Part shown: piece by piece, positions 13,276 to 22,515 of the stretch | Numbering within the stretch: the first letter of the stretch is position 1 | Layout of the letters: each line of letters starts with the position of its first letter | NCBI GenBank assembly: GCA_016841325.1 | Contig: JAENZJ010000027.1 | Span: forward strand, 1 to 41,682 | Direction of reading: 5' to 3' | Source of the DNA: Thermincola carboxydiphila | GTDB lineage: Bacteria; Bacillota; Thermincolia; Thermincolales; UBA2595 | Length of the DNA: 41,682 nucleotides | Position numbers and translations under genes: made by a program | Notes under the pieces: generated by a model | The model's input: only the letters and a program-made list of their open reading frames with translations | Database searches by the model: none | What the model was told of the DNA's origin: nothing

Positions 13276-13977
13276 CTAATACACCCGGACCAGGACGAGA
13301 AAATACAGGCCCAGCAAAACCAACACCACGCCGCTGCCCATGGTAATATAGCGGGAATACTTATGAAACTTGGGCAGTTCCCTGATAACCCCCGTAAAAG
13401 TCCCTGCAATAAGCAGCGGCAGGCCGTGTCCCAGCCCGTAAACAAACAGCAGGGCCGCCCCGTAATAAAAGCTTCCGGTGGAAGCCACATAAGTTATGAT
13501 AACAGCCAGGACAGGGGTCGCACACGGTGAAGCCACCAGGCCAAACATTAGTCCGATGAGAAATGACGGGACCAGCCCGCCCTTTTTTACAGGCATTTTA
13601 TTCAGAGTGGGGAACCTGATATTAATAACTTCCAAAAGGCTTAATCCCATGACTATGGCAATAACTGCAAGCACATAATACCACAGGTTACCGGCCTGCC
13701 CCACTACCCGGCCCAGCATCACGGCTATAATACCAAAAACGGAAAACGTCACCGACATCCCCAGGACAAAGGCAGCAGACATGGCAAATCCCCTGATCCT
13801 GGTCCTGTCGTCTCCGCCGCCGCAGCCCCCGATATATCCGACAATCACAGGGGTCATAGTCAGAATACAGGGACTTACACTGGTTACAATACCTCCAAAA
13901 TATACTATTAAAAAAGATACAGGCGAAATAGTGCCCAGAGCCTGAGGCAAAACCTTATCTAAGAACTCCTGAAACAT
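13276..13977 (-). CDS. ccdA: CcdA-type thiol-disulfide transmembrane protein
   Basis: A 233-residue membrane protein with six predicted helices that carries electrons from cytosolic thioredoxin to extracytoplasmic thiol proteins. The paired redox cysteines are in TSVSPCILTMTPVIVGYIGG (helix 1) and ASPCATPVLAV (helix 4), as in CcdA/DsbD-beta. A Gly-rich GGCGGG loop with an extra Cys follows helix 1. It lies 20 bp after the seleno-thioredoxin gene, its obvious partner. CcdA normally serves cytochrome c maturation or spore envelope thiols; a multihaem cytochrome is encoded at 30753. Confidence 0.92.
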   Translation of the reverse strand: MFQEFLDKVLPQALGTISPVSFLIVYFGGIVTSVSPCILTMTPVIVGYIGGCGGGDDRTRIRGFAMSAAFVLGMSVTFSVFGIIAVMLGRVVGQAGNLWYYVLAVIAIVMGLSLLEVINIRFPTLNKMPVKKGGLVPSFLIGLMFGLVASPCATPVLAVIITYVASTGSFYYGAALLFVYGLGHGLPLLIAGTFTGVIRELPKFHKYSRYITMGSGVVLVLLGLYFLVLVRVY

Positions 13978-13997: not shown

Positions 13998-14447
13998 TTA
14001 TTCTTTACCGACACCCTGGACAGCCTTGTTCAGGTGGCCCTCCAGGAAATCCCGGCTCTGGGTTCCCGCATCCGAATAAAGGACACTTCCCTGGCCATCC
14101 AGTATTACAATATGCGGGATATAATAGACTTTGAATTGCCTGGCAAGGGGAGCAGTTCCGGCATCATTGGTATCAGCAATTATAAACTCCACATCATTCC
14201 CGTATTTCTCTTTCAGAGCCAGCACCACGGGCTCCATATCCCGGCAAGCCGGTCAGGTAACTGCGTAAAATTCCAGAAACACCGGCTTTCCGGCCTCGGC
14301 AGCACCGGCAAACTTTTCTGCGGGGTCCGGCGTTGTGGCAAAATGCTGTCCGCCTTCCTGTCCGGAATTAATATAGGGAAATACAAAAATAACTCCTGCC
14401 GCAAGTACTACCAGTACCAGAATAATTACCCTGAAATTAACCTTCAT
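13998..14447 (-). CDS. Membrane-anchored thioredoxin-like selenoprotein (U-P-A-C), TGA read as Sec
   Basis: Two half-frames join through one in-frame TGA (14255-14253) into a 149-residue protein. An N-terminal membrane anchor (VNFRVIILVLVVLAAGVIFVF) is followed by a thioredoxin fold: KPVFLEFYAVT-U-PAC-RDMEPVV, then VEFIIADTND, the cis-Pro motif YYIPHIVIL and a C-terminal helix. Sec65 falls on the first redox position of CxxC and Cys68 is retained. Homology continues without a gap on both sides, which argues for recoding rather than decay. Probably extracytoplasmic and reduced by CcdA encoded 20 bp downstream. Start at ATG 14447 (AAAGGCGG 7 nt upstream); ATG 14465 is possible. Confidence 0.85.
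14212..14255 (-). promoter_or_regulatory. Candidate bacterial SECIS element
   Basis: The RNA just after the UGA can form CCGG/CUUG/CCGG, or CGGG with an 8-nt loop (AUAUGGAG) and CCCG, putting a loop about 18-25 nt after the UGA, within the range of bacterial SECIS loops. Clostridial SECIS sequences vary, so this rests on position and fold only. Confidence 0.45.
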
Positions 14448-20500: not shown

Positions 20501-21232
20501 ATGGCCCCGGCAAGTAATAACATTGACGTCTTGCAGGTGATAAGCAGAATTCAGGCTGGCGACCAGAATGCCCGGGAAGGCTTTCTTCATGAATATAAAC
20601 CTTTTGTGGCCAAAACCGCCATGAGTCTCTGTAAACGCCCCCTCCAGTGGGAGGATAGTGATGAACTGAGTATCGCACTGATTGCATTCAATTCAGCTAT
20701 TGATACATATGACACCCGGAAACAGGTCCCGTTCCTGCCATATGCAAGGGTGGTCATTAATAACAGGTTAAAAGACTATTTCCGCAAGGAATCCCGTTTA
20801 AATATCGAGTGTTCCCTTGACATCGAAACCAGTGACGGCAAAATGCTTAGTCCTGCAGAGGTTCAGTCTGCCTGGGAGGATTTCCGGAACAGGACAATTG
20901 AGGAAGAACGACGGGAAGAACTGGAAGAATACGAAATACTGCTGGAGAAATTCGGTATTGACTTTGAAGACCTGGTGGAAGTATCACCAAAACACAGGGA
21001 CTCACGGCAGACCCTGTTTAAAGTAGCCGGCCTGATAGCCGGAGACAAAGAAATGATGGAACAGTTACTGGCAAAAAAACAGCTTCCTATTAGTGAACTG
21101 ACTTTAAAAACAGGGGTAAACCGCAAGACTCTTGAAAGAGGCCGCAAATTTATTATAGCCACTTCTCTGATCCTGTATTATCCGATGCAGTTTCCGTATC
21201 TGTATTCCTATATTTATCAGGGAGCTTATTAA
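20501..21232 (+). CDS. sigI: RNA polymerase sigma factor SigI
   Basis: A 243-residue sigma-70-family factor. VISRIQAGDQNAREGFLHEYKPFV (~9-32), WEDSDELSIALIAFNSAIDTYD (~50-72) and FLPYARVVINNRLKDYFRKES form the region 2 typical of SigI; a short C-terminal region 4-like segment (ISELTLKTGVNRKTLERGRKFI) follows. It begins after GAGGTG and is followed 2 bp later by rsgI. In Bacillus and Clostridium SigI responds to heat or polysaccharide signals through RsgI. The last residues (FPYLYSYIYQGAY) resemble other SigI C-termini. Confidence 0.93.
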   Translation: MAPASNNIDVLQVISRIQAGDQNAREGFLHEYKPFVAKTAMSLCKRPLQWEDSDELSIALIAFNSAIDTYDTRKQVPFLPYARVVINNRLKDYFRKESRLNIECSLDIETSDGKMLSPAEVQSAWEDFRNRTIEEERREELEEYEILLEKFGIDFEDLVEVSPKHRDSRQTLFKVAGLIAGDKEMMEQLLAKKQLPISELTLKTGVNRKTLERGRKFIIATSLILYYPMQFPYLYSYIYQGAY

Positions 21233-21234
21233 TC

Positions 21235-22515
21235 ATGGAACTGGCTGAAAGGGTGTTTCCGATGAAAATCAGCGGACTTGTTGTTAAGGTGAAAAGTCCA
21301 TATTACATTATCCTGACCAGTGACGGCACTTACCATAAGGTACCCATTTCAGGCAATCCGCCGGTGGGTATGGGGGCCCATGCAGAATTCTCAACTGCCG
21401 GTCACAGTTTTGCCCGTTTCCGCTATCTGAAGCAGGCAGTATTAGTGGCCTCTCTGCTGGTGATGGTCTTGGGATTCGGTATTATTCAAGCAGTTACAGA
21501 TCCTGAGGTGGCGGCATATGTTTCCCTGGACATAAATCCAAGTATCGAACTTGAAATAGACAGTGACCTCATCGTAACCGGAGTTAATTTATTAAACCCT
21601 GATGCCGAAAGACTCCTTTCGGGAACTCCCTTGAAAGGGGCCAGCCTGTCCGCAGCAGTTGACCTGATTATGTCAAAGGCTCTGCAGGACGGCTGTCTGA
21701 AACCGGGGGAAAAAAACCTTATCCTGTCTACCATTACCCTCAACAGCAGCCTGAAAAAGAATGTCGATTTTGAAAACCTGGCAGCATATCTGGAGCAACC
21801 GGTGGCCGGTAAGGAAATAGATGTGGAAATTGTGATTGCATCCACAGATAAATCCCTCAGGGATGAGGCAGGCAGGCAGGGCTTATCTGCAGGTAAGCTG
21901 CTGGTATATAAAAATGCCCTCCAATCCGGTGAAAAATTAACCATAGATCAGGTGAAGCAAAACAGTCTGATACAGCTTGAAAATGAATTCGGGGTCCAAA
22001 TCCTTAAGAATTATAAACATCAAATCATCCGCAAAATCCACACTGCCGGTGAAAAGGCCGGAAACGGGCCCGGAAACGGCCACAGTCAGAAGGATGCCGA
22101 TGATGACAAAAAACAAAATAATGACAACAGAAATCAAAATAATCCCGGGAAAAATAAATCAGAATCAGAAAATCAAAATAAAAACTCATCCGGCAAATCC
22201 TCAAAAGGCAGCTCATCTCGGGTGAATAAAAACCAGGCACCAGATGCAGGTCCGGAACAAGGCCAGCAGCAAACCCAGGAACAGAACCTGGAGCAGAACC
22301 AGGAACAGAACCAGGAACAGAACCAGGAGCAAAACTTACCGGAGGAGCAACCGGGAGGAACAGGAGAACAACAGGAACAGAATGATGAAAAAAACTCTTC
22401 CGGAGACAACGGACAGAGCAAACCTGGAAGCAGCAGCGGGGACACCGGAAAAAAGCAGGATTCTGACACCGGTACATCCGGCAATGCTTCTGAAGGCCAC
22501 AGCGGGAAAAATTAA
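21235..22515 (+). CDS. rsgI: RsgI-type transmembrane anti-sigma factor with a low-complexity tail
   Basis: A 426-residue partner of SigI. Residues ~10-60 are the cytosolic RsgI_N domain (KISGLVVKVKSPYYIILTSDGTYHKV), ~68-88 one membrane helix, ~90-270 the extracytoplasmic domain beginning YVSLDINPSIELEID, the conserved place where RsgI proteins undergo Asn-Pro self-cleavage (here N101-P102). Residues ~275-426 are disordered and Asn/Gln/Ser/Glu-rich, with repeats of EQNQ. Unlike cellulolytic-clostridial RsgI it has no carbohydrate-binding module. ATG 21235 follows GGGAG by 10 nt; ATG 21262 is possible. Coupled to sigI. Confidence 0.9.
   Translation: MELAERVFPMKISGLVVKVKSPYYIILTSDGTYHKVPISGNPPVGMGAHAEFSTAGHSFARFRYLKQAVLVASLLVMVLGFGIIQAVTDPEVAAYVSLDINPSIELEIDSDLIVTGVNLLNPDAERLLSGTPLKGASLSAAVDLIMSKALQDGCLKPGEKNLILSTITLNSSLKKNVDFENLAAYLEQPVAGKEIDVEIVIASTDKSLRDEAGRQGLSAGKLLVYKNALQSGEKLTIDQVKQNSLIQLENEFGVQILKNYKHQIIRKIHTAGEKAGNGPGNGHSQKDADDDKKQNNDNRNQNNPGKNKSESENQNKNSSGKSSKGSSSRVNKNQAPDAGPEQGQQQTQEQNLEQNQEQNQEQNQEQNLPEEQPGGTGEQQEQNDEKNSSGDNGQSKPGSSSGDTGKKQDSDTGTSGNASEGHSGKN
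22268..22342 (+). repeat. In-gene repeat coding Gln/Asn/Glu tail of RsgI
   Basis: Tandem copies of a ~12-nt unit (AACCAGGAACAG) code for EQNQ repeats. Such runs are prone to slippage, so copy number may vary between strains. Confidence 0.7.

Follow-up and report, generated by a model that had tools for sequence, protein, structure and literature searches.

At positions 14447-13998, the minus strand of the Thermincola carboxydiphila contig JAENZJ010000027.1 (41,682 nt, analyzed at full length and called the window here) carries a frame of 149 codons that ends in TAA and is interrupted once, at codon 65, by an in-frame TGA (14255-14253). Is this TGA the scar of a broken gene, or does it encode selenocysteine (Sec), and if so, what could such a protein do next to a gene for the membrane electron carrier CcdA? 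The initial annotation, made from the letters of the window alone, had favored Sec.

The internal TGA of the thioredoxin gene very probably encodes selenocysteine

Under the standard code the region gives two ORFs of 78 and 79 aa, so that standard annotation would break the gene in two, as had been foreseen. Read with TGA as Sec, the two join in the same frame into one protein of 149 residues, hereafter the selenothioredoxin, with an N-terminal membrane helix (residues 5-26) and a thioredoxin domain. The TGA stands for the first Cys of the CxxC redox motif and the second Cys is kept, giving U65-P-A-C68 in the context FYAVT-U-PAC-RDM. The choice of the ATG at 14447 as start is backed by relatives in which the upstream frame is closed (e.g. 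L021) and by the purine-rich AAAGGCGG upstream of it.

The read-through protein scored above the Pfam gathering cut-offs for Thioredoxin (PF00085, 42 bits vs 23.5) and Thioredoxin_2 (PF13098, 36.6 vs 27), and AlphaFold2 predicted a thioredoxin fold with a mean pLDDT of 88.5, in which residue 65 directly precedes the active-site helix (66-82). Pro111, invariant in the alignment of relatives, directly precedes strand 112-116 of the model and is a candidate for the cis-Pro of the fold. Foldseek returned thioredoxins and the C-terminal domain of DsbD as the top matches of the model. Together, the Pfam scores and the modeled fold place the protein in the thioredoxin superfamily, in line with the membrane-anchored thioredoxin that had been proposed. 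The membrane helix has no obvious cleavage site, which is compatible with a tethered extracytoplasmic domain, and the helix would keep the thioredoxin domain on the outside of the cytoplasmic membrane.

A more specific name was not provided by NCBIfam, where no model at or above its cut-off named the protein. The TrxA equivalog TIGR01068 gave 39.3 bits (cut-off 96.8) and the ResA model NF002854 29.3, far below its cut-off of 170. The StoA model NF041202 had no match in the selenothioredoxin and a weak one in a CcdA-fused relative (26.3, cut-off 210), and neither of the two proteins reached the cut-offs of the DsbD models. Scores for the TsoB model NF045694 were 27.8 for the selenothioredoxin, 102, and 150 for the fused relative, all below the cut-off of 805, and the SaoT model NF040730 was not among the selenothioredoxin matches at E <= 0.01.

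Is the host able to decode UGA as Sec? The Thermincola genome (3.43 Mb, 99% complete) holds the whole set of genes that the initial annotation had named as a check: tRNA-Sec (selC, 75.3 bits, with anticodon TCA according to ARAGORN), SelB (369 bits vs a cut-off of 242), SelA (625 bits vs 268) and two selD genes on contigs C39 and C5, one of which adjoins selA. Both selD genes have an in-frame TGA themselves, as do three formate dehydrogenase loci, which by the same criteria indicates that UGA is read as Sec in standard selenoproteins of this genome. A second tRNA-Sec match above the Rfam cut-off was identified as an ordinary tRNA-Ser.

Sec and Cys exchange at one residue in relatives

Relatives were sought in 398 Bacillota genomes, and 26 of these held one at E <= 1e-18, a close one (L134) coming from a Thermincola ferriacetica MAG. 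The residue equivalent to U65 is a single TGA in 22 of the 26 and Cys in the remaining four, three of which belong to one family and the fourth to another. The exchange thus falls precisely in the U65 column of the alignment and stops are not found at random places. SelB was found in all 22 genomes with the Sec form and tRNA-Sec in 20 of them, the two misses being assemblies of 75% and 82% completeness. Among all 26, the sole genome in which both SelB and tRNA-Sec were missing (G303) carries the Cys form. Three of the four Cys rows, those from the same family, group as a clade in the tree, beside a long-branched Sec row and within the Sec-rich part; this placement suggests a change from Sec to Cys, with deep forks that are weakly supported.

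Named genomes were also scanned with a DNA pattern that combines the UGA, the codon of the second Cys and the hairpin described below. The 63 loci obtained partly overlap with the genes of the 26 relatives, and all of them encode UxxC thioredoxin proteins. An earlier scan of contigs with single-protein patterns gave no match; those patterns were perhaps too specific, and one had Cys at the Sec codon. The selenothioredoxin family is conserved across many anaerobic Bacillota families.

Selection on the gene was followed in a within-genus comparison, where dN/dS was 0.12-0.22 before the TGA and 0.05-0.11 after it. Purifying selection therefore acts on both sides, with a constraint after the TGA that is no weaker than before it, and a degraded gene would not give such values. 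Judged from these sequence comparisons, the internal UGA very probably encodes Sec in an intact gene.

A hairpin downstream of the UGA

The initial annotation had noted a loop-forming sequence after the TGA, and a SECIS-like hairpin, GGAGCC-CGUGGUGCU-GGCUCU, is indeed found at 14235-14215 (minus strand), 17 nt from the UGA to the stem and 23 nt from the UGA to the apical loop, with GU in the loop. As given in a review (PMC13188914), the bSECIS model has an upper stem of 4-16 bp, an apical loop of 3-9 nt with a G in its first two positions, a distance of 16-37 nt from the UGA and a minimum free energy of <= -7.5. The predicted hairpin has 6 bp, a 9-nt loop (smaller if inner pairs form), a distance of 23 nt and -8.9 kcal/mol, and so fits the model. 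The stability is moderate: the bare hairpin has the energy stated, 3 nt of flanks bring it to -9.7 (z = -2.15), and in many relatives the bare 21-mer reaches -7.2, slightly short of the -7.5 threshold. Against the hairpin counts that a longer piece of the window, 55 nt, has a different minimum-energy structure. A search of Rfam gave only a snoRNA match, which we dismissed as chance.

The hairpin is conserved in relatives, and most of the 22 Sec rows follow the consensus GGAGCC-NGUGRUNNN-GGCUCU after the UGA, at the same distances of 17 nt to the stem and 23 nt to the loop. Stem pairing holds in 89% of the cells in Sec rows as compared to 43% in Cys rows, i.e. the stem is broken in the Cys relatives. 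The stem also encodes MEPV..AL, and conservation of the protein alone could account for part of its conservation. Since covariation is too sparse to carry the case (three cells changed on both sides of the stem), we turned to codon choice, on which the support for an RNA element mainly rests. In the Sec rows the Glu codon of the hairpin is GAG in 21/21, the Val codon GTG in 22/22 and the Ala codon GCT in 19/22, as compared to 36%, 24% and 25% for the same codons elsewhere in the same genes (p = 1.4e-5, 4.5e-8 and 4.1e-5, respectively, counted by family). By this comparison of sequences, the codons of the hairpin are held beyond the needs of the protein in Sec members.

Linkage and fusion to CcdA

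The gene directly downstream, at 13276-13977 on the minus strand, lies 20 bp past the selenothioredoxin gene and encodes a CcdA of the DsbD_TM family (PF02683, 107.2 bits vs a cut-off of 27.1) with one cysteine in each half, C37 in SPC and C152 in SPCATP. In the 26 relatives, tblastn found ccdA directly downstream in 17, three Cys forms among them, and in three more a CcdA that continues the thioredoxin frame as a fusion. It was not found beside the other six, so that the partnership with CcdA is not universal. At the 63 loci of the DNA-pattern scan, 36 in-frame CcdA fusions were found and 11 loci had ccdA just downstream; the remaining 16 showed no ccdA in the available stretch, several of them ending at a contig or locus edge. 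Fusions occur in Desulfosporosinus and in MAGs labeled Syntrophomonadaceae, which from the names of the isolates we take to be of soda-lake origin. Across 23 aligned fusions there is no variation at the Sec position, at the second Cys or at either cysteine of CcdA. The link to CcdA that the initial annotation had drawn from adjacency in one genome is thereby extended to a conserved and often fused arrangement. Beyond ccdA, we looked among the relatives for conserved neighbors and found none; neighbors vary by lineage.

The same Thermincola genome has a second thioredoxin-ccdA pair (L002:1504-2634, contig C22), which is Cys-based with the motif KTCQSC and, by eye, has a methyltransferase-like gene nearby. 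The Sec version is therefore not simply the only extracytoplasmic reductant of the organism.

Several arrangements were observed in individual lineages. In soda-lake and related MAGs (L073, L115, L121, L122 and L126) the fusion is followed by two genes that by eye resemble 2-oxoacid:ferredoxin oxidoreductases, and in several of them an MFS-type transporter precedes it. MAGs of the fusion clade also hold second-copy selenothioredoxins with long acidic linkers that are not fused to ccdA (L091, L096, L105 and L123). For a UxxC branch that includes Ca. Formimonas warabiya (L034, L038, L039, L040, L124 and L133), ccdA was not found in the available stretch, and in L119, L124 and L133 the UxxC gene is, by eye, close to a tsaB/tsaD-like cluster. 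A locus in Desulfosporosinus nitroreducens (L117:6642-7184) has a frame that diverges past the thioredoxin core, and a complete fusion (L095) is found elsewhere in that genome. Elsewhere in the window, at 20501-22515 on the plus strand, a gene that by eye resembles a sigma-I-type sigma factor adjoins one for an RsgI-type anti-sigma-like protein, whose long tail is rich in Gln, Asn and Lys.

Relation to known selenoproteins and thiol relays

Since at least 2006, UxxC selenoproteins have been on record for both the thioredoxin and the 'thiol:disulfide interchange' family, and PMC1794560 and PMC13188914 list Sec thioredoxins from Geobacter, Treponema denticola and Carboxydothermus (hydrogenoformans). 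The Thermincola protein shares with the bacterial selenoprotein Trx (PF00085) the UxxC in place of CxxC and the Sec/Cys exchange at the same residue, but differs by its N-terminal membrane helix, by the linkage or fusion to CcdA in its family and by its score on TIGR01068 (39 vs 96.8). The Carboxydothermus Trx may belong to the same clade. With the 'thiol:disulfide interchange protein' selenoprotein it has in common the match to PF13098, the UxxC and a presumed role as exported thiol oxidoreductase; in the available sections of the 2006 survey (PMC1794560) that protein is listed from Deltaproteobacteria (Syntrophus and Geobacter), and no CcdA link is described for it. TsoB (NF045694), which resembles a rhodanese/DsbD fusion, is likewise a selenoprotein with a DsbD-type membrane domain, but has a rhodanese part and two Sec (UxxxxU), and its model matches the selenothioredoxin weakly. 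SaoT (NF040730) is also a thioredoxin-like UxxC selenoprotein; its model is unmatched at the E-value used, and genes for a sao-type ABC transporter were not noticed beside the selenothioredoxin. A further parallel is the pairing of CcdA with ResA, StoA or TlpA, and DsbD, where CcdA or a DsbD_TM domain feeds an extracytoplasmic thioredoxin fold, but these use CxxC and the ResA, StoA and DsbD models remain under their cut-offs here.

UxxC thioredoxin selenoproteins are thus already known, whereas a CcdA-linked or CcdA-fused selenothioredoxin was not found in the open-access papers searched. The available text of a 2026 review does not list it and mentions DsbD for TsoB alone (PMC13188914). Automatic annotation is expected to hide the family, since the standard code splits it at the catalytic residue.

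A probable selenium version of the CcdA relay

CcdA and DsbD take electrons from thioredoxin in the cytoplasm and hand them to thioredoxin-fold proteins on the other side of the membrane. Our full reading, which we hold with high confidence, is that the selenothioredoxin is decoded by means of SelB and the hairpin, fed by CcdA and active as a general extracytoplasmic reductant. It draws on sequence evidence, namely the position of the TGA, the Sec machinery, the Sec/Cys exchange, the RNA element and the linkage and fusions to ccdA, and on the modeled fold. SelB and Sec-tRNA would recode the UGA at 14255-14253 via the hairpin at 14235-14215, leading to insertion of Sec and a Sec-Pro-Ala-Cys site, presumably of low pKa. 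With its two cysteines, CcdA would take over these electrons from cytoplasmic thioredoxin and use them to reduce the selenenylsulfide (Se-S) of the selenothioredoxin. The Sec selenolate could then attack disulfides of extracytoplasmic proteins, and Cys68 would resolve the mixed Se-S bond. Physical linkage and fusion make the selenothioredoxin the most likely direct acceptor of electrons from CcdA, and from this we infer that reduction is likelier than oxidation as the direction of flow. The protein would serve as a general reductant, with cytochrome c maturation as one plausible client in Thermincola.

Could the frame instead be a pseudogene or a sequencing error, i.e. a thioredoxin of the CxxC kind whose Cys codon has turned into a stop? 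The two ORFs of the standard annotation are what such a gene would give, but the same-residue TGA in 22 of 26 relatives, the TGA at the 63 named loci, the purifying selection on both sides of it, the Sec machinery and the conserved hairpin leave this explanation with hardly any probability. Decay is improbable, as the initial annotation had argued, and misreading of TGC or TGT as TGA is excluded by the identical TGA in 22 genomes and 63 named loci. UGA recoding is always in competition with termination, and with a hairpin of modest stability one may picture a switch, where translation mostly ends at the UGA, yielding a peptide with the membrane helix, and a minor, selenium-dependent product contains Sec. 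The truncated peptide would however be without the second Cys and the remaining fold, and in the fusions a stop at the UGA would cost the protein its CcdA part as well; we regard a switch of this kind as very improbable.

Narrower roles may also be considered for a protein that does contain Sec. In Bacillus subtilis, CcdA feeds ResA, and a seleno-ResA dedicated to cytochrome c maturation, keeping the CxxCH cysteines of apocytochromes reduced for ResB/ResC, would fit this link and the three ResB matches in the Thermincola genome. ResB is somewhat more common in genomes with the gene (14/26) than in those without it (6/20), but not significantly so (Fisher p = 0.14), and ResB, which marks system II of cytochrome c maturation, was not found in 12 of the 26 genomes carrying the gene. 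Cytochrome genes are not beside the selenothioredoxin, and the ResA model is far under its cut-off (29 vs 170 bits). Cytochrome c maturation is therefore a possible client but cannot be the sole one, and a dedicated role is rather unlikely. CcdA also reduces StoA in B. subtilis, an established link that, together with the downstream neighbors in the window, a GerMN lipoprotein and an SH3/amidase protein (the latter by eye), could point to a StoA-like selenoprotein in synthesis of the spore cortex. These neighbors are not conserved, as other members are flanked, by eye, by genes resembling 2-oxoacid oxidoreductases or argininosuccinate lyase or by unrelated ones, and the StoA model is weak in the fused relative (26 vs 210) and unmatched in the selenothioredoxin, which makes the spore role a doubtful one, less probable still than the dedicated cytochrome role.

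Taken together, we consider a general CcdA-fed selenothioredoxin the best account of this locus. The family probably represents a widespread selenium version of the CcdA/DsbD relay, in which a tethered selenothioredoxin, often fused to CcdA as a two-part enzyme, would let electrons leave strict anaerobes via Se-S and not via a disulfide. This links selenium with thiol-based electron transfer across the membrane in metal-reducing, sulfate-reducing and soda-lake anaerobes. The fusion with CcdA offers one polypeptide in which to ask why Sec is used over Cys in the extracytoplasmic reductant of a strict anaerobe, with the natural Cys relatives as controls.
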